The translations under genes and the position numbers were made by a program. Shown here piece after piece: positions 22,362-30,456 of a stretch of 64,000 bases of DNA. The stretch lies in contig NZ_FNTG01000005.1 in NCBI RefSeq assembly GCF_900104795.1, positions 124,001 to 188,000 of the forward strand, given 5' to 3'. Under the pieces are notes generated by a model. That model saw only the letters and a list, made by a program, of their open reading frames with translations, did not search any database and was not told where the DNA came from. How positions within the stretch are numbered: position 1 is the first letter of the stretch; each line of letters opens with the position of its first letter. The DNA comes from Burkholderia sp. WP9 (GTDB lineage Bacteria > Pseudomonadota > Gammaproteobacteria > Burkholderiales > Burkholderiaceae).

Positions 22362-23188
22362 GGCTCTGTCAAGTTGGGGTAGATGGTTTGAGCTAGCACG
22401 ATAAGATATGGTGTCCTTATGAATTTGCCTGAGAAGCTTTCACTCCCGTCCATTCCTGCCATGTAAGCAGACGCGCCTTCAGTTCGGCGCGATGGCATGC
22501 GGCATTCATCCGGTGCCGTGGCAAGGCGAAGTGCTGGCGGATCGGGCCGAAGCTGGCGAGAAAACGCTGTGTGCGTCGCGGGTCACGAAAGCCTTGCATC
22601 TGGCGCTCGCGCCGACGTGTGGGCTGATGACTATTCTCAGCGCGGTTGTTCAGACGGGCGGCCGCCCTGAAAAACACATGCTTCACGCTGGCTAGCTCGG
22701 GAATATCGGCCTTGGCCGCCGCGTAGCTGCGCAATTGATCAGTGACGATCTTGCGTGGCACGGGATGCAGGCGGAGCACACGCTTGAAGAAACGTTCGGC
22801 CGCGGCTTTGTCACGGCGCTTTTGCAGCAGAATATCGAGTTCTACACCGTGTTCGTCCACTGCACGCCACAACAGGTAGGGATCGCCGCGCAGTATCACG
22901 AACATTTCATCGAGGTGCCATGTCGAGCCCGGCCTGGCACGCGCAGCCTTCGCGCGACGCGCAAACTGCGCGCCGAACCGATCGCACCAGTTGCGTACTG
23001 ACTCGTAGCTCACGCTCACGCCACGCTCGAGCAACAACTCTTCGATGTCACGCAGGCTCAGGTTGAAACGATAGTACCAGCGGACCGCGCAACCAATGAC
23101 GGCCGCGGGAAATCGGAAACCATAGTAAGGTGACTTGCTCTTTTTCATGCCCCATCTTACCAGGCACCCAGCTCAACTTGACATTGCC
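22362..23188 (-). mobile_element. IS6-family insertion sequence (copy 1)
   Basis: About 827 bp with imperfect terminal repeats: left GGCTCTGTCAAGTTGGGGT, right (inverted) GGCAATGTCAAGTTGAGCT. One transposase gene fills it. No 8-bp target duplication is visible in the flanks, so it arose by, or later took part in, a rearrangement. Its right end cuts into the 5' part of the papain-like gene. Confidence 0.8.
22417..23148 (-). CDS. IS6-family transposase
   Basis: 243 aa, intact. It has the IS6 start FPAAVIGCAVRWYYRFNLSLRDIEELL and the DDE core: Asp in STWHLDEMFVILRG, Asp in KIVTDQLRSY, Glu in NNRAENSHQPTR. It is closely similar to the transposase at 52937 and more distant from the one at 46148, so at least two IS6 types are present. 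Confidence 0.92.
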   Translation of the reverse strand: MKKSKSPYYGFRFPAAVIGCAVRWYYRFNLSLRDIEELLLERGVSVSYESVRNWCDRFGAQFARRAKAARARPGSTWHLDEMFVILRGDPYLLWRAVDEHGVELDILLQKRRDKAAAERFFKRVLRLHPVPRKIVTDQLRSYAAAKADIPELASVKHVFFRAAARLNNRAENSHQPTRRRERQMQGFRDPRRTQRFLASFGPIRQHFALPRHRMNAACHRAELKARLLTWQEWTGVKASQANS

Positions 23189-24899
23189 GAGCTCAGTTGT
23201 ACTTGAGTTCGAGTACGTCGACAAAGACTATCTTGAGGATTACTCCAGATTTTACGTGAAGCGATTCAGCAGTATTGGCCCGAAATGCGCGCGGCTACAC
23301 TTTTTCTCGTGCGAGCTCGACCATCGGCGGATCGATGAACTACTCACTAACGGAACCAGTGAATCCGTCAAAGGAATTCAAGATTGTTACCTTGGGTTCA
23401 TGGTAGTCAAACCCTTACCGAAGACGTTCATCGGCAAGACATGCCTCAAACACTATGAGGAAATCAACCAAACACCGTTCAAGAGGGCGCTAACGCGCCG
23501 CTACGAAGTCAGCCTCTTCGGTGTTCAACTTTACGTTGATTCCATCGCGTTCCAAGAACAAGATAAGGTGGTTTCGGCATGTGCGACGACATCGATCTGG
23601 TCGGCACTCAATGCGATTAAGTGGCGACCAGTCAGAACGATCCCTTCATGCAGTGAGATCACGACAAGTGCAATCAATTTCATTGAGGGTTCAAGCAACA
23701 GTTTTCCCAATAAGGAGCTGTCTAATAAGCAGATTCTCCGTGCATTCGATGTTGAAGGTTTGCGCCATCACACGGAGTCGCTTGAAAAGGTCAGTCGGGA
23801 TGAGCTTGTTGAGACAGTGAAATGCTACATCGACAGTGGACTGCCATTGATCCTCGGATCCGATGTCTACGACCTTGACGGGGCGGGGAGCCTGGCTATC
23901 AAAGCCGGGCATGCCGTTTCGATCGTAGGCTACAAGTTCTCGGTATCGGCCGACGCTCGGTCCACGTCAAACACGATCCTCTCGGTTTCCGACGACCCTC
24001 TTTACATTCACGATGATCGCCTTGGACCTTTTGCGCGTGCACGTTTTGCGCAGTTTTGCGATTCGGCGCCCTTGGAACTAGCGGGAAGGTGGTGTCTCGT
24101 CGTTCAAGAGAAGGACGACACAGGTGGATGGAGTCACCCGCACGAAGTGTTCGTTCCAAACGTCCTGATCGCCGCAACGCATAAGAAGGTCCGCTTAGGT
24201 CCATCGTTCGCCATCAATACATGTAAAACAATAGTGAAGGCTTACGAAAACGAGGTGACGTGGCTCGGACAACAGAATGGAGCATCCGATATCTCGACCC
24301 TTCTGAATCAATTGACATACGAGGTGCGGCTAGAAGAAATATCGGATCTGAAAAGGTCTCTGGTCGAATCGAAACCTGAGAGCGTGTTCGTCGACACTGA
24401 TGGCGCGGAAGTGCTGTGCTCTGATGAAGATCTCGCCGAACAGCAGCGGAACAAAGTGCGCTTCCTTACGGGGAGCTATGCTCGATTCCAATGGGTGGCC
24501 GACTTTAAGTATCAAAATCGCCCGGCCTTTACCATGCTAATTGACGCGACCGATATTCCACAGGGACATGCGGTCTCTGCGGTCCTCGTGAAGAACAGGA
24601 CGGGTGCCGACGCGACGCTCGAGGTACTGAAATACGGGTCTTCGCCAAAGGCATTGCTAGCAATTGAAGAGGAGGATACTCAAACGTTCTTCACGTCATT
24701 CCTGCGACGCCTTCGACCTGCGGAAGACGGAATTGCTGATCATCTCAACAAAACCTACGGCGAACCGCGAGCTCCACGCAAACTCAAAGAGTCAGAATTC
24801 CGCGATGGGGAGATTCTTGTGAACGATACGTTGCAGCGCTTTTACGAACGTATGCGGTCCATCAGCGACGCCCCTCAATTCAGGTGGCGGAGCGCGTGA
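23189..24899 (+). pseudogene. Papain/C39-peptidase-like protein, 5' end removed by IS6
   Basis: About 569 codons are open from the IS end to TGA 24899, with no suitable start after the IS boundary. The first residues (EFEYVDKDYLEDYSRFYVKRF) already look internal. YLGFMVVKPLP is followed by a likely cysteine-protease site, FQEQDKVVSACATTSIWSAL (Gln and Cys, ~125-145). A later AGHAVSIVGYK supplies a His in papain/C39-like context. I recognise a family of bacterial proteins of unknown function with this layout. GC content and third-base bias are lower than in neighbours, which suggests transfer. Perhaps only 20-40 N-terminal residues are lost. Confidence 0.6.
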
Positions 24900-24918
24900 C
24901 GTGTGGTAGGAACGCGGA

Positions 24919-25117
24919 TCAGCGTAGGTTGGCCGGCAGCTTCCAGGGAAGCAGCGCGTCGTAGTCGTCGACCGTCTTTGCCAGAGGCAACCGCTGGAAC
25001 AGCCAGGTGAGGTAGCGATACGGATCGATGCCGTTGGCTTTTGCTGACTCGACCAGCGAATAAAGATTCGCACTCGCATGTGCGCCAGCAACTGTATCGG
25101 CAAACAGGAAGCTTTTG
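24919..25117 (-). pseudogene. tnpC: IS66 transposase (tnpC), 3' fragment
   Basis: Minus-strand frame: RKSFLFADTVAGAHASANLY, then SLVESAKANGIDPYRYLTWL and ending ALLPWKLPANLR before a stop at 24919-24921. This is the C-terminal end of IS66 transposases. It continues, codon for codon, the tnpC part that ends at 27716 in ...PFVMGR. The two halves are separated by the serine-recombinase element. Confidence 0.85.
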
Positions 25118-25130
25118 CGTGCGACGACAC

Positions 25131-25616
25131 ATGCCCGTTCATTCTGCCCATATCGGGCAGGACGTGGAAGTCCATTATCGTTGGCACCCGCTGTATGGCC
25201 GCCGAGTCAAGGTTCGAGACATTGAACAACGCGGTGGCGACCGCGTTGTCCATGTTGAAGCGAGTGCTGGCGTAGTCAGGATAGTAGCGGGCTGGATGCT
25301 CGATTCTGTCATGTGTGCAGGGATGGAACTCGGTGACCCGAGAGTGACCGTAGCAGCGTTGGGCGAACTGCATCAGCTACTCGTTGAGCGAGGTTTGCGT
25401 GGAAACTCACCGGACGATTCCAACACCGTCCGGGAGAAACGCAATGGATACAAAGGTCGTTCCATCAAATCTGTCGCCAGAGACTCCTCACCAGATGAAC
25501 CTGGCGTTCGACACCGCCGAGCTTCGGGGGATGAGCGCTCCCCAGCGTACAAAGGCGACGAACTGCCTTGCCAGCCTGTTGTTGCAGGCCGCCGGCATCG
25601 TAGCAAGGGGGCATGA
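25131..25616 (+). CDS. DUF5372-like protein, recombinase-associated
   Basis: Up to 161 aa from ATG 25131, just inside the left end of the element. The conserved part is VEVHYRWHPLYGRRVKV, then VVHVEASAGVVRIVAGWMLD and LGDPRVTVAALGELHQLLVERG (first ~95 residues). This family is found beside large serine recombinases; its function is unknown. Its stop overlaps the recombinase ATG (ATGA, 25613-25616). The last ~60 residues overlap another gene in a different frame and look low in information. Confidence 0.6.
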   Translation: MPVHSAHIGQDVEVHYRWHPLYGRRVKVRDIEQRGGDRVVHVEASAGVVRIVAGWMLDSVMCAGMELGDPRVTVAALGELHQLLVERGLRGNSPDDSNTVREKRNGYKGRSIKSVARDSSPDEPGVRHRRASGDERSPAYKGDELPCQPVVAGRRHRSKGA

Positions 25617-25632
25617 CGATGACGAACACTGA
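25444..25632 (+). CDS. Small recombinase-associated protein
   Basis: 62 aa from ATG 25444. MNLAFDTAELRGMSAPQRTK and LASLLLQAAGIVARG form a short two-helix protein with an acidic tail (HDDDEH). Similar small ORFs commonly precede recombinases of this type. It overlaps both the DUF5372-like frame and the recombinase start, so three frames are used within ~20 nt at 25613-25632. Role unknown. Confidence 0.55.
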   Translation: MDTKVVPSNLSPETPHQMNLAFDTAELRGMSAPQRTKATNCLASLLLQAAGIVARGHDDDEH

Positions 25633-27712
25633 TCGTTTGCCCGCCGCGCTACTCAAACGCAAAGCGGTTGTCTATGTCCGCCAGTCGACCCAGGCGCAGG
25701 TCCAGATGAACCTTGAGAGCAAGCGTCGTCAATACGAGCTTGTTGAGGAAGCGAAGCGCCGGGGATTTCGCAACGTCGAGGTCATCGACGACGACTTGGG
25801 CCGTTCGGCGAGCGGAACGGTGGCCAGGCCGGGTTTCGAGCGACTCGTCGGGTGGCTTTGTGCCGGAGAGGTCGGAGCGGTGCTGTGTCTGGATGCTTCG
25901 CGTTTGGCGCGCAACGGTCGAGACTGGCATCATCTGCTTGAACTATGCGGTCTCGTCGAGGCGAGGGTCATCGATCTGGACGGCGTATACGACCCGGGCC
26001 ACCCGAATGACCGCCTCCTGCTTGGAATGAAAGGCAGCATCAGCGAATTCGAACTCAACGTGCTGCGTACACGTATGCACGACGCGCGCCACGCCAAGGC
26101 CCGCCGTGGTGAACTGCGCATCAGCGTACCCATTGGTTACGTGTGGCATCGTGAGGCGGGTCTGGGATTCGATCCAGATCTTCGGCTACAGGAAGTGATA
26201 CGGACGATCTTTGCACGGTTTCGCGAACTGGGCAGCGCGCGGCAGGTTCTGTTGGCCATGCGGGCCGAACAGATCCACTTCCCGCGGCCCTCTGACGGTC
26301 GATCACTGATTACTTTCGACTGGACGCTGATTCGTTACCGCAACGTGATCGCGGTTCTCAAGAATCCGTTCTATGCCGGGGTCTACGCCTATGGTAAAAA
26401 TGAGGTGCGGACGTCTGTCGTGGAAGGCCGCGCGCGCAAGAGCTATAAACACCCGAAGCCGTGTGGGGAGTGGAAAGTTATGCTCCAGGAACACCACGAC
26501 GGCTACATCGGCTGGGACGAGTTCGAGCGAAACCAGAAGCAGCTCGCTGCCAACGCTTATGGCAAGGCTGGTGACGTCAAGACTGGGCGCGGTGGACGAG
26601 CTTTGCTGGCCGGCCTGCTCGCATGCGGGCGGTGCGGCAAACGTATGTCGACAGGCTATTCGGGGCGCGCGCCAGGTCATCCAGTCTATCGGTGCATGCG
26701 CCTTGAGTTACCCGCCGGAACGCCTCAATGCATTATCTTCGGCGGTTCGCGTGTAGATGCTGCACTCGCCAGAGAACTCGTCCGCGTTGTCGAGCCGTTG
26801 GCGATTGAGGCCGCTCAGCAAGCTGAACGGATGCATATGGAAACCCTCGAAGAACAGCGCCGGATCGTAGAACTGGAATTGCAGCAGGCACAATACGAAG
26901 CCACGCTCGCGGAACGGCGCTATGCTGCCTGCGACCCCGAGAACCGTCTGATTGCAGCGCAACTGGAGAAAGTCTGGGAAACTGCCCTGCGTCGCGTGCA
27001 AACCTGCCAGATGCGTCTGGACACAATCGGCACGACGACACCGGATCCCACTGTCGTCCCTGACTTTACCGGACTTGCCGGAGATCTGAATACCGCATGG
27101 AATGCGCCTGACGTCACGATGCGCGTACGTCAACAACTCGTTCGTGCATTGATCGCCGACATCATCGCCGATGTGGATGAGGTGACGCACGAAATCATCC
27201 TGACGATTCATTGGCAAGGTGGCCAGCACTCACAGTTGCGGATCCGCAAGCCCCGGCCGGGGGAACACGAGTGCCGCACGCCTGATGAAGCGCTCGCGGT
27301 CATGCGAAGCATGGCAGCCCGGTGGTCCGATCAGGACATCGCCGCGTCGCTAAACCGGATGGGAATACGCACCGGACAGGGTAAGACATGGACAGCACAC
27401 CGTGTCAGCTCCATGCGGCGCGTGCGCGACATTCATGCCTACCGGTCGGCGGAGAAAGACGGCGAATGGTTGACGATGTCGGAGGCTGCCAGCCTGCTCG
27501 GCGTGAGCAGCCACGTGATTCGACGCCTGATCAGGGATAAGGTTCTGCCTGCCGGCCAGGTGGTACCCGACGCCCCTTGGCAGATCCGTGCAAGTGACCT
27601 GCACACCGAAGCGGTCACAGCTGCGTTGGCCCGCAAACATCGCCCGTGTCGCGACAATACCGAAGGTCAAATCCCAATGTTTATCGAGGTTTCGGAAGGA
27701 GGTGCACAATGA
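25613..27712 (+). CDS. Large serine recombinase
   Basis: 699 aa. The resolvase domain starts at ~15, with the nucleophile Ser in VVYVRQSTQAQ; GRSASG and DASRLARNGRDWHHLLELC follow. The recombinase domain includes NPFYAGVYAYGK (~255). The zinc ribbon has CGRCGKRM and YRCMRLE (~345-370), followed by a coiled coil rich in Glu/Gln. Unusually, the C terminus adds an excisionase/MerR-like HTH (EWLTMSEAASLLGVSSHVIRRLI, ~620-645). It would catalyse integration and excision of the element that carries it. Confidence 0.9.
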   Translation: MTMTNTDRLPAALLKRKAVVYVRQSTQAQVQMNLESKRRQYELVEEAKRRGFRNVEVIDDDLGRSASGTVARPGFERLVGWLCAGEVGAVLCLDASRLARNGRDWHHLLELCGLVEARVIDLDGVYDPGHPNDRLLLGMKGSISEFELNVLRTRMHDARHAKARRGELRISVPIGYVWHREAGLGFDPDLRLQEVIRTIFARFRELGSARQVLLAMRAEQIHFPRPSDGRSLITFDWTLIRYRNVIAVLKNPFYAGVYAYGKNEVRTSVVEGRARKSYKHPKPCGEWKVMLQEHHDGYIGWDEFERNQKQLAANAYGKAGDVKTGRGGRALLAGLLACGRCGKRMSTGYSGRAPGHPVYRCMRLELPAGTPQCIIFGGSRVDAALARELVRVVEPLAIEAAQQAERMHMETLEEQRRIVELELQQAQYEATLAERRYAACDPENRLIAAQLEKVWETALRRVQTCQMRLDTIGTTTPDPTVVPDFTGLAGDLNTAWNAPDVTMRVRQQLVRALIADIIADVDEVTHEIILTIHWQGGQHSQLRIRKPRPGEHECRTPDEALAVMRSMAARWSDQDIAASLNRMGIRTGQGKTWTAHRVSSMRRVRDIHAYRSAEKDGEWLTMSEAASLLGVSSHVIRRLIRDKVLPAGQVVPDAPWQIRASDLHTEAVTAALARKHRPCRDNTEGQIPMFIEVSEGGAQ

Positions 27713-27715
27713 ACG

Positions 27716-29095
27716 CCCCATTACAAACGGGCGAATGGAATTTTCGCAAGGGTTGTTCGATATGGGCCAGTTGCCGTTCTCGATGTATCGGATCAGCTTG
27801 GGCCACTGCCCATGCAGATAGGTCAGGGCCTTGCCGAGTAAACTTTGCGGCACGACGCCGGGCAACTGTTCAAGCATCAGCGTTTCGATGGCATCGAGCA
27901 CGCGTGCACTGTATCGTCGTCGCAATCGCTGTCGTCGTTCAGCCGGCCACGTTTCACTGCGCGCCTCCGCCGCAAACAGCTTGCCGATCAGTTTGATGAA
28001 GCGTGTGGCGAGCAGATCGGGGGAGCGTGCCGCCTTGGGCACGTTATCTTCGGCCTTGACCAGATACCGTCTCGCATGAGCCCAGCATCCGAGGTGCACG
28101 AGTTGATACTGTTGCGCAATGCCGTTGTAGGGCTCGTATCCGTCGGTCATCAGAACCGCGCCCCTGCGGATGCCGGCGAACAGTTTGTCGGCCAGCTTCG
28201 CGCCGCGACCAGCCGTATAGGCGAAACAGCGGATGGGCGTTCCCGATCCGGTCATTTGCGACCAGAGATAGCTTTTCGTTTGCGGCTTGCGCCCTTCTTC
28301 TTTCAGGACCTGGAACGTCGTCTCGTCGCAGTAGATCACGTCAGCATCGAGCAACGCGTCGCGCATCAGGTTGATAACGGGCTGCGTCGCGAGACCGACG
28401 CGGACCATGCTCGCGGCGAGCGTGTTCGACGAGATGTCGCCACCGAAGCGTCGCAGCAGGCCCGCCTGGCGATAGATCGGCATGCCAAACTGATACTTGC
28501 CGGAGGCGACCCACGCGAGTGCCGATTCCGTCAGCAGTCCACGCGGGATGATGCGCAGCGGCGCTGGCGTGACCTTGATGCCAAGATCGCAGCACGGGCA
28601 GGCATACTTGACGCGCTGGTGCTGGATGACGCGAAGCTGTTCGGGGATCACGTCGAGCTGCTCGCTCGTTTCGACGCCGATCTCGACGAGTGCATGTCCG
28701 TCGTGGTTGCAGAAACGTTCGGCTTCGGGAAGTTCGTGCCGAACGACTTCGCGCGGCAGATTGGGATCGAGCGGTTTGCGATGACCGCGTTTCTTGCGCG
28801 TATGCGCGGCGATCGTGGTTTCGGGAGTATCTTCCTGCGCGGGTGTCGCGTTCGCGCCGAGCACTTCGGCTTCGTTGAACAGACCGGGTTGCTCAGCGGA
28901 TCGCGCTTCGCTCTTCGCGCCGAATAGCTCGCGACGGTAAGCACGCAGTCGTTCCTCGGCGAGATCGCGCTCCGCCGTCATGAGGCGCAGTGCACTGCGT
29001 AACTCGTCGCGCTCTTTCTGAACGGCACCATGTTCCTCACGCATCGCGAGGAGCATCCTGAGTTCGTCGGCGTCAATGGTCACGTTGATCGGCAT
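27716..29095 (-). pseudogene. tnpC: IS66 transposase (tnpC), 5' part
   Basis: 460 codons from MPINVTIDADEL to CENSIRPFVMGR, where the serine-recombinase element begins. It has the N-terminal leucine-zipper region, zinc-binding CPCCD, and the DDE residues in YCDETTFQVL, MTDGYEPY and NPCENSIRPF. The frame runs on into the inserted element by chance, so a hybrid of 581 aa could be made. The real continuation is at 24919-25117. Confidence 0.88.
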
Positions 29096-29125
29096 GTCAC
29101 TTAGACCGGCACGCCGATAACGTGT

Positions 29126-29482
29126 TCAACTCACGCGAGCATAATGGCGTTTCGGATGCCGCTGAAGAGCAGCAATGTCAGCACCTTCGAGAAGCCAGTG
29201 CAGCAGATTGACGGTCAACGTCACGACTTCGGTTTTGCTGTCAGGCCAGACGAAGCGATCATTGGCCTCGAGTCTCTTGAGCATGAGCCAGAAACCGTTG
29301 TCCTGCCAGCCCAGGATCTTGACGCGATCGCATCGCCGGTTGGTAAAAACGTAGAGCGAGGAATCCATCGGATTCAGGCGCATCGCCTGTTCGACGAGAA
29401 TCGACAGACTGTTCATTCCGTACCGGAAATCAACGGGATCGCGGTGCAGGTACACCTTCAGATTTTCGTCGAACCGGAACAC
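29126..29482 (-). CDS. tnpB: IS66 accessory protein TnpB
   Basis: 118 aa, normal length. It has VYLHRDPVDFRYGMNSLSILVEQ, YVFTNRRCDRVKILGWQDNGFW and FVWPDSKTEV. TnpB is needed for IS66 transposition; its molecular role is not settled. It overlaps tnpA by 25 nt and lies 30 nt before tnpC. Confidence 0.92.
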   Translation of the reverse strand: MFRFDENLKVYLHRDPVDFRYGMNSLSILVEQAMRLNPMDSSLYVFTNRRCDRVKILGWQDNGFWLMLKRLEANDRFVWPDSKTEVVTLTVNLLHWLLEGADIAALQRHPKRHYARVS

Positions 29483-30021
29483 GGCATCCTCCCGAACATC
29501 TGGACCACGGTGCTCAGTTCCTCGATGCTCGCTGCACTGAGATCAAGCTCCACGCCATTCGACAGTCGCACATGCAGCGAAAGCGTGATCGGCGCAGTTG
29601 CAGTCAACACGAGTGGCAACGGCGGCACCGATGGTGTTGAGACGACCGGCACAAATGCAGAGGTAGACGGTGCGGACAGGAGGTGCTTACTTGAGCCCGC
29701 AACGTCGATCGATGCGTCATCCACGCCACGACGGAAGTCCTCGTGGGCAATTACGTCGACGGCAGATGACGGTAGATCGCGCTCGTCGGCGCGCGTTTCC
29801 TGCGATGCCAATGCGATGCCTTTCTCGCGCTCCATCAGATACTTCGTGATCCATTTGCGCAGCAGGTTAGCGTTGATCCCGTGCTCCTGTGCCAAACGGG
29901 CGACTGACGCGCCTGGTCGCAAGGCGGCCTCAATCAGTACGCGCTTGCCTCCCTCGTCATAGCGACGGCGCCCGTCGCGGCTTTGACGAACTACTTTCAA
30001 CTCTGAGTCTTTGCCAGTCAT
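29458..30021 (-). CDS. tnpA: IS66 protein TnpA (HTH)
   Basis: 187 aa. The HTH of IS66 TnpA is at residues ~18-58 (RRYDEGGKRVLIEAAL, VARLAQEHGINANLLRKWI). The linker is Pro/Ser/Thr/Val-rich, and a conserved end follows (VRLSNGVELDLSAASIEELS). It has the usual position as first gene of the element. A long palindrome covers its start codon. Confidence 0.88.
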   Translation of the reverse strand: MTGKDSELKVVRQSRDGRRRYDEGGKRVLIEAALRPGASVARLAQEHGINANLLRKWITKYLMEREKGIALASQETRADERDLPSSAVDVIAHEDFRRGVDDASIDVAGSSKHLLSAPSTSAFVPVVSTPSVPPLPLVLTATAPITLSLHVRLSNGVELDLSAASIEELSTVVQMFGRMPCSGSTKI

Positions 30022-30055
30022 AGGTGTCCACCTCCAAAATAGGTGGACACCTATG
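30019..30055. repeat. Inverted repeat with 15-bp arms over the tnpA start
   Basis: Arms CATAGGTGTCCACCT (30019-30033) and AGGTGGACACCTATG (30041-30055) are perfectly complementary around a 7-nt loop. The left arm contains the tnpA start codon. It could be an operator, an RNA hairpin that hides the start, or part of the element end. Confidence 0.7.
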
Positions 30056-30456
30056 CTCCTCGCTCAGAGCGTCGTTGTGTAGGCGCCGAATATGGATCGC
30101 TTACTTACGAACCGGTGGGCGATACTCTCGACGTCAGGTTTTCTGAACTTAACGCTAACGATACAGGGTCCTATTTGATTTGGGCCATCGCTCAAGATGG
30201 CGCTTTGCTCGTTGGGAAAGAAATCAACAGAATGGGCCATCCGTGTCTTACGGGCTTCAAGCCGGCGCGTATCGCCGGCGAATTGAAGCGCACGCCGGAA
30301 GGTTGGGTCATTAATTCAAAGTCCGGCCGTTATAGCGGCGATTACACGAACGCGCCGGAGCTGCTCGGAAATGCTTTGCGCCGGTTCCAGTCCATTTTTC
30401 ACGCGTCCAGAGATCGGTTGTCGATCGAGCCGTGGGCGCCATTGGACGCTAGCTGA
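30043..30456 (+). CDS. Unrecognised protein beside the IS66 end, 5' end uncertain
   Basis: 137 aa from GTG 30043, which lies inside the palindrome. A genuine start before the IS66 insertion cannot be excluded. Distinct parts are SLTYEPVGDTLDVRFSEL, LLVGKEINRMGHPCLTGF and ARIAGELKRTPEGWVINSKS, followed by GRYSGDYTNAPELLGNALRRFQ. I have seen similar small proteins in Burkholderia but know of no function. If IS66 were removed it would follow the papain-like gene, so the two may once have been a pair. Confidence 0.55.
   Translation: MDTYAPRSERRCVGAEYGSLTYEPVGDTLDVRFSELNANDTGSYLIWAIAQDGALLVGKEINRMGHPCLTGFKPARIAGELKRTPEGWVINSKSGRYSGDYTNAPELLGNALRRFQSIFHASRDRLSIEPWAPLDAS

Follow-up and report, generated by a model that had tools for sequence, protein, structure and literature searches.

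A compact serine-recombinase element inserted at a conserved motif of IS66 tnpC, with sister clades in core genes of other mobile elements

In Burkholderia sp. WP9, an IS66 transposase gene is interrupted by about 2.6 kb of DNA that carries three open reading frames (ORFs) on the strand opposite to IS66, which raises the question of what this insert is and how it came to lie there. The DNA analyzed here (the window) is a stretch of 64,000 nucleotides (contig NZ_FNTG01000005.1, positions 124,001 to 188,000); its relevant features are collected in Table 1. The first-pass annotation had described a tnpC gene split by three ORFs, one of them a large serine recombinase, and Pfam matches support this description. 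Of the two tnpC parts, the 3' one matches DDE_Tnp_IS66_C and the other DDE_Tnp_IS66; the recombinase matches Resolvase, Recombinase, and HTH_17. With high confidence, we interpret the insert as a compact insertion element that encodes the large serine recombinase responsible for its movement and belongs to a family whose clades are each aimed at a conserved motif in a core gene of another mobile element.

Table 1. Features of the IS66 copy and its insert in the window
Feature	Position	Strand	Basis
Left 8-bp direct repeat TTACGAAC of IS66 plus insert	24842..24849	.	Identity to second copy begins at 24849
Insert-bearing IS66, ends GTATGCG.../...CGCTTAC	24850..30104	-	Two near-identical own-genome copies
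IS66 tnpC, 3' part (VARKSFLFADT... to stop)	24919..25126	-	PF13817 DDE_Tnp_IS66_C; natural empty sites
Left 2-bp recombination core AC	25127..25128	.	Junction comparison, empty-site test
Serine-recombinase element, unique part, 2,594 bp (2,598 bp core to core, 25127-27724)	25129..27722	+	Junction comparison, empty-site test
ORF1 (HSAHIGQ..VHYRWHPLYGRR), ~160 aa, conserved, distantly DUF5372-like	25131..25616	+	Comparison with relatives
ORF2, small conserved protein, 62 aa	25444..25632	+	Similar open frame in relatives inspected
Large serine recombinase, 699 aa, C-terminal excisionase-like HTH	25613..27712	+	PF00239, PF07508, PF13408 (below cut-off), PF12728
Right element end, one attP arm (GTGCACAATGAACG...), right core AC at 27723-27724	27700..27724	.	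Junction comparison
IS66 tnpC, 5' part (...NPCENSIRPF)	27725..29095	-	PF03050, PF13005, PF13007
IS66 tnpB	29126..29482	-	PF05717
IS66 tnpA	29458..30021	-	PF01527
Right 8-bp direct repeat TTACGAAC	30105..30112	.	Sequence inspection

The domains of a large serine recombinase (Resolvase, Recombinase, and zinc ribbon) were found together in the window protein, in which the zinc ribbon scored 24.7 bits (cut-off, 25.3). The ten relatives scanned, all sister-clade proteins, have this architecture as well, with a zinc ribbon above the cut-off. The C-terminal helix-turn-helix (HTH) is above the Pfam cut-off in the window, L214, and L154, below it in six others, and absent from L159 and L161, while the NCBIfam excisionase model TIGR01764 scored just below its cut-off. 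Remote relatives in the PDB, detected by sequence, are YokA, the PhiC31 integrase, and TnpX (best E value, 6e-7). Large serine integrases recombine attP with attB at a 2-bp core. The element resembles these enzymes (PhiC31, Bxb1, YokA, TnpX/TndX) in its catalytic, recombinase, and zinc-ribbon domains and in its 2-bp core, but differs from them in being minimal, with three ORFs and no phage or conjugation genes, in its C-terminal HTH, and in that its family sits in core genes of other mobile elements. A phage origin was rejected, as none of the 29 phage records matched covered more than 80% of the query and all were below 60% identity.

The likeness of ORF1 to DUF5372 proposed in the first-pass annotation holds only distantly. 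ORF1 did not reach the Pfam gathering score for DUF5372 in the window, L012, or L049, but the cut-off was reached in the distant relative L157, which carries DUF5372 and DUF6788. The links that remain are weak and run through more distant relatives, with both queries matching one ORF of L158 (E values of 6e-3 and 7e-5). Element length varies little: of the 59 copies that could be delimited at both ends, the two in the WP9 genome among them, 57 measure between 2,474 and 2,625 bp; the outliers are L069 (2,851 bp) and L083 (5,053 bp).

The exact ends were placed by comparing junctions over 18 offsets in these 59 copies (the two in WP9 and those of 57 relatives). Left and right junction bases agreed in 56 of 59 copies at offset 0 and in 48 of 59 at offset 1. 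Of the remaining 16 offsets, 14 gave agreement in 10 to 28 of 59 copies, and +3 and +9 gave 40 and 48; for these two we assume that both sides are conserved for other reasons. Four uninterrupted natural IS66 copies (L120, L121, L149, and L150; 93 to 94% DNA identity) read RPFVVARK(S/N)FLF. Flanks joined at the AC core matched these empty sites at 116 to 117 of 120 positions, compared with 73 to 75 of 120 for flanks joined at the CG dinucleotides that had first been taken as boundaries. CG junctions were therefore rejected on all three counts (natural empty sites, junction agreement, and empty-site test); they lie 9 bp off, and neither the rebuilt empty site TTTTGCGCCCCAT nor the join reading RPFVMGRKSFLF corresponds to the natural copies. 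The CG boundaries and TTTTGCGCCCCAT are a coincidence, because the element end ATGGGGCG resembles the target. The AC dinucleotide is common to both junctions and lies at the center of a dyad formed by the element ends (AATGAACGC...core...GCGTTCATT), as expected of attP; arm identity was 56% in register and 21 to 27% when shifted by 1 to 3 positions (n = 61).

A precise empty site would also suit a regulated intervening sequence like the skin and fdxN elements, whose programmed excision would restore tnpC and control IS66. The recombinase has a partial match to NCBIfam XisF and an excisionase-like HTH, in keeping with such a role. However, the XisF score of 90.3 bits falls far below the equivalog cut-off of 375, and the fixed pairing of element and IS66 that a developmental element would show is missing from the loci described below, so that we consider this explanation unlikely. 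Another possibility is that the element supplies a replacement C-terminus that keeps a fused TnpC (581-aa ORF) active. In the window, the fused reading frame runs on for 124 codons without a stop, but the tail ranges from 5 to 739 codons among the copies, and many elements stop it within 16, which makes this proposal barely credible. For the same range of lengths, a conserved functional antisense TnpC tail was rejected as unlikely.

Relatives were retrieved from species genomes through recombinase peptides only, with context ignored, and the best 80 of 96 stretches, a few of which share a genome, were read. At least one junction was readable in all but one of them (L086), and in 71 of these 79 the IS66 TnpC motif is split at the codon after R-P/G-x. 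Both junctions were readable in 57 relatives, 50 of which show both tnpC halves in one orientation. The first-pass annotation had named two findings that would tell against it, relatives lying mostly outside IS66 and junctions at random points of tnpC; the counts above, with the break always in the same codon of recognized tnpC genes, point the other way. It had also placed the target right after the catalytic Glu motif; the position is correct, and we likewise take the preceding motif to contain the catalytic Glu. Its interpretation, a serine-recombinase element aimed at a tnpC motif of IS66, is thus supported. The eight relatives in which tnpC was not recognized are L017, L039, L068, L084, and L087 (one side only or decayed), L090, which adjoins an apparent transposase HTH gene, and L061 and L071. 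The latter two, from a Roseovarius MAG and Rhodobacter amnigenus, form a related lineage with a common target gene, without a Pfam match, that is entered between ALRDL and ARWLYRQ. In L058, each side of the element carries a 3' part of tnpC, as would result from recombination between two elements.

Matching cores at the 50 loci with both halves were GC in 35 (28 forward, 7 reverse), CC in 3, GT in 2, CA in 1, and AC in 1. At the remaining eight loci the two cores are unequal, which we can explain only by assuming later mutation. Over all recognized tnpC loci, 62 elements are forward and 9 reverse (the mixed L058 counted as forward). This bias speaks against the model, since a palindromic GC core should give near-random orientation, yet the ratio is 62:9 overall and 28:7 among matching GC cores. 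As for the palindromic core as the cause of orientation, the 7 reverse loci with matched cores are all GC and the 7 with non-GC cores (CC, GT, CA, and AC) are all forward, next to 28 forward GC loci; these numbers are small.

If the recombinase were instead a passenger gene, that is, a stable part of certain IS66s that is inherited and moved together with them, element and host should keep company. Indeed, the composite of IS66 and insert occurs at two different places in the WP9 genome (99.98% identity over 5,260 bp), with 8-bp flanks that differ (TTACGAAC for the window copy, CTTGAAGC for the second). IS66 target duplications are 8 bp long. Both exact copies of the window IS66 found in this genome bear the insert, and the next matches are 74 to 79% identical (40 of 96 candidates scored). 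It is therefore probable that IS66 and insert travelled together, using transposase provided in trans; conceivably, the element instead entered each of the two IS66 copies independently. That both own-genome copies sit in the same IS66 counts against an independently moving element, and L053 and L054 similarly have element and right flank in common. However, three loci of Rhizobium johnstonii 3841 (L049, L050, and L051) carry elements that are 100% identical over 2,583 bp in three different IS66s, whose 1.4-kb right-hand flanks have no DNA match to each other, so that joint inheritance does not hold and recent movement is indicated by the sequences. Furthermore, the N-terminal TnpC parts of the relatives' hosts are mostly only 24 to 37% identical to the window TnpC, and the tnpC insertion is therefore not simply inherited. 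Both orientations occur, and natural empty sites exist. The passenger reading is thus already largely refuted, and we regard it as very improbable. A 589-aa ORF (window positions 23130 to 24899) adjoins IS66 and runs into its end; the composite may have interrupted it.

The first-pass annotation had confined the habit to IS66, which fits the tnpC relatives but proved too narrow for the family as a whole, as its sister clades have their targets in other genes and in mobile elements other than IS66. A plasmid search returned 536 records with related recombinases, from which ten distant relatives (32 to 43% identity) were picked along the identity scale before their flanks had been seen. In each of the ten, at least one flank is a gene of another mobile element: IS66 tnpB (both halves in L152 and L161, one half in L153 and L156), IS21 istA (L158) and istB (L160), an IS3-type transposase (L155, one side), an IS5-type host (L159, one side), and group II intron reverse transcriptases (L154 and L157). 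In L158, from a Paraburkholderia hospita plasmid (positions 600 to 6622), the element lies inside an IS21 istA that itself lies inside an IS66 tnpB, forming a three-layer nest. The WP9 genome holds a second family member (L003, C3:75425-77320; 35% identity), located in an IS21 istA between KKPRD and KA. Within the genus of the window, 74 of 144 genomes, WP9 included, contain a recombinase match at an E value of ≤0.001, a count that includes remote large serine recombinases.

Clade-specific boundaries were taken from copies of one element at different places, and the host frames were then read. The targets are RPLGI or an ADI..D motif of the reverse transcriptase, the junction of RPRD and KAKVE in IstA, the position immediately before GVGKSHL in IstB, that immediately before the Glu motif in IS3 OrfB, the YN..RPH region of IS3/IS481, residues of approximately 50 to 58, 60 to 70, or 97 to 100 in IS66 TnpB, and ...NDRLLLGLKGT of another serine recombinase. 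We take these motifs to include the catalytic Glu and Walker A. Pfam assigned 25 of 30 host pieces to the expected mobile-element families; two matched only a general HTH (L192 and L198), and three had no match (the N piece of L209 and the C pieces of L199 and L222). L199 and L200 represent one family recombinase at two places, and in both the interrupted gene encodes a further serine recombinase.

Target labels, partly set by eye, were mapped onto a tree of 97 recombinases built by a quick method. The 14 known labels require 13 changes, which is the lowest number possible for them. Counting "unknown" as a further label (15 labels) raises this to 18 changes, whereas shuffled labels needed 56.5 on average. 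A single branch sets apart each of four groups: tnpC (support of 63), the first tnpB group (100), reverse transcriptase at PLGI (100), and IS3 at the Glu motif (100). Because labels were partly set by eye, they were audited with host queries from other loci, excluding self-derived queries. Among the 52 non-tnpC rows labeled as mobile-element genes, both host halves were recovered in 33, one half in 16, and none in 3, namely, L198, with HTH matches only and an uncertain label, and L222 and L159, in each of which Pfam recognizes a transposase. L173 (Tn5-type transposase, both halves) was added after the audit. The other non-tnpC rows are L061 and L071 in their common gene without a Pfam match, L203 in an NmrA-like host gene, and L092, L185, and L220, for which no host gene was called.

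A class-wide recombinase search yielded mostly remote large serine recombinases, which served as a rough control. The control is not clean, because 3 of its 26 loci (L095, L107, and L108) also have a reverse transcriptase gene nearby. These three recombinases (22 to 33% identity) lie beside pieces of group II intron reverse transcriptases, which in L095 and L107 are found on either side of the recombinase as a split gene; the three are possibly another lineage with the same habit. In the family set, which includes repeats of one place and loci that supplied queries, a mobile-element match lay within 1.7 kb in 69 of 79 loci. The ten loci without one comprise L159 and L173 (transposase Pfam matches), L181 and L187 (IS3 pieces), L196 and L197 (at contig ends), L198 (general HTH matches only), L203 (in a host gene), and L185 and L220 (no host gene called).

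These data also bear on whether the element is a serine transposon of relaxed specificity that hits many GC-rich sites, with insertion-sequence (IS) genes overrepresented merely as repeats. Insertion into ordinary host genes does occur, because L203, in the NmrA-like gene, carries the same element (100% over 3,380 bp) as L202, in an IS66 tnpB, and the target of L061 and L071 likewise departs from the rule. A survey that mapped targets of large serine recombinases and found competence genes enriched (Durrant 2022, PMC10083194) describes a clade with TndX-like recombinases as multitargeting. In contrast, the tnpC elements hit a single codon of a single motif in hosts that diverge widely, each clade keeps its own motif, and at every one of the ten distant plasmid loci at least one flank belongs to a mobile-element gene. 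We consider relaxed specificity improbable.

Under our preferred reading, a compact element with a targeted recombinase, a circular form would carry the attP dyad, and the recombinase would recognize as attB the DNA encoding the conserved TnpC motif E-N/R-x-I-R-P-x followed by A/V-x-G-R-K. In the codon that follows R-P-x, the strands would then be cut in a staggered fashion at the 2-bp core, which is usually GC but AC in the window; integration would leave a truncated TnpC, presumably at a cost to the host IS. More speculatively, excision and reintegration may be made possible by the small ORFs or by the excisionase-like HTH at the C-terminus. The integrated element could also be carried by its host IS66. 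On a wider scale, the match between clades and targets, as read from sequence, makes it likely that these elements form a guild living on other mobile elements, in which each clade exploits one conserved or catalytic motif of a transposase, IS helper protein, intron reverse transcriptase, or serine recombinase. Its members would move among unrelated hosts of one class, travel with them, and limit how far they spread.

The group II intron RmInt1 homes into an IS transposase gene in Sinorhizobium and is likewise specialized on such a gene, but it moves by RNA-based retrohoming, whereas serine recombination is proposed here. The nearest published concept is that of the helper-embedded PICI (HE-PICI; PMC10111431), in which an integrase clade repeatedly targets helper-element genes and subclades match site groups. 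Both systems involve integrase clades that target genes of another element, with subclades matching sites. However, HE-PICI are described there as phage satellites in prophage late genes, unlike the very small elements reported here, which occupy genes for transposases, intron reverse transcriptases, and recombinases. The IS607-family transposons are also small elements moved by a serine recombinase, but the published account (PMC4058570) gives them an inverted domain order and minimal target specificity, in contrast to the canonical order of large serine recombinases and the strict target of the present family. IS66 does not occur in the main text of the target survey (Durrant 2022, PMC10083194). 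Among the papers listed, titles and abstracts yielded no description of such elements; bioRxiv preprints and most subscription journals lay outside this coverage, and absence is therefore no proof.

The habit is broader than IS66 tnpC, extending to IS66 tnpB, IS21 istA and istB, IS3/IS481, an intron reverse transcriptase, and a serine recombinase. Parasitism of transposons would be a niche for serine integrases, one that offers sites the hosts can hardly mutate, because these encode conserved and often catalytic motifs. The numerous integrases of this family, in which target sites can be read and differ by clade, are a resource for work on specificity. Such elements would explain many "broken" transposases beside recombinase genes in rhizobia and Burkholderiales, and they are predicted to act as a natural check on the spread of insertion sequences.
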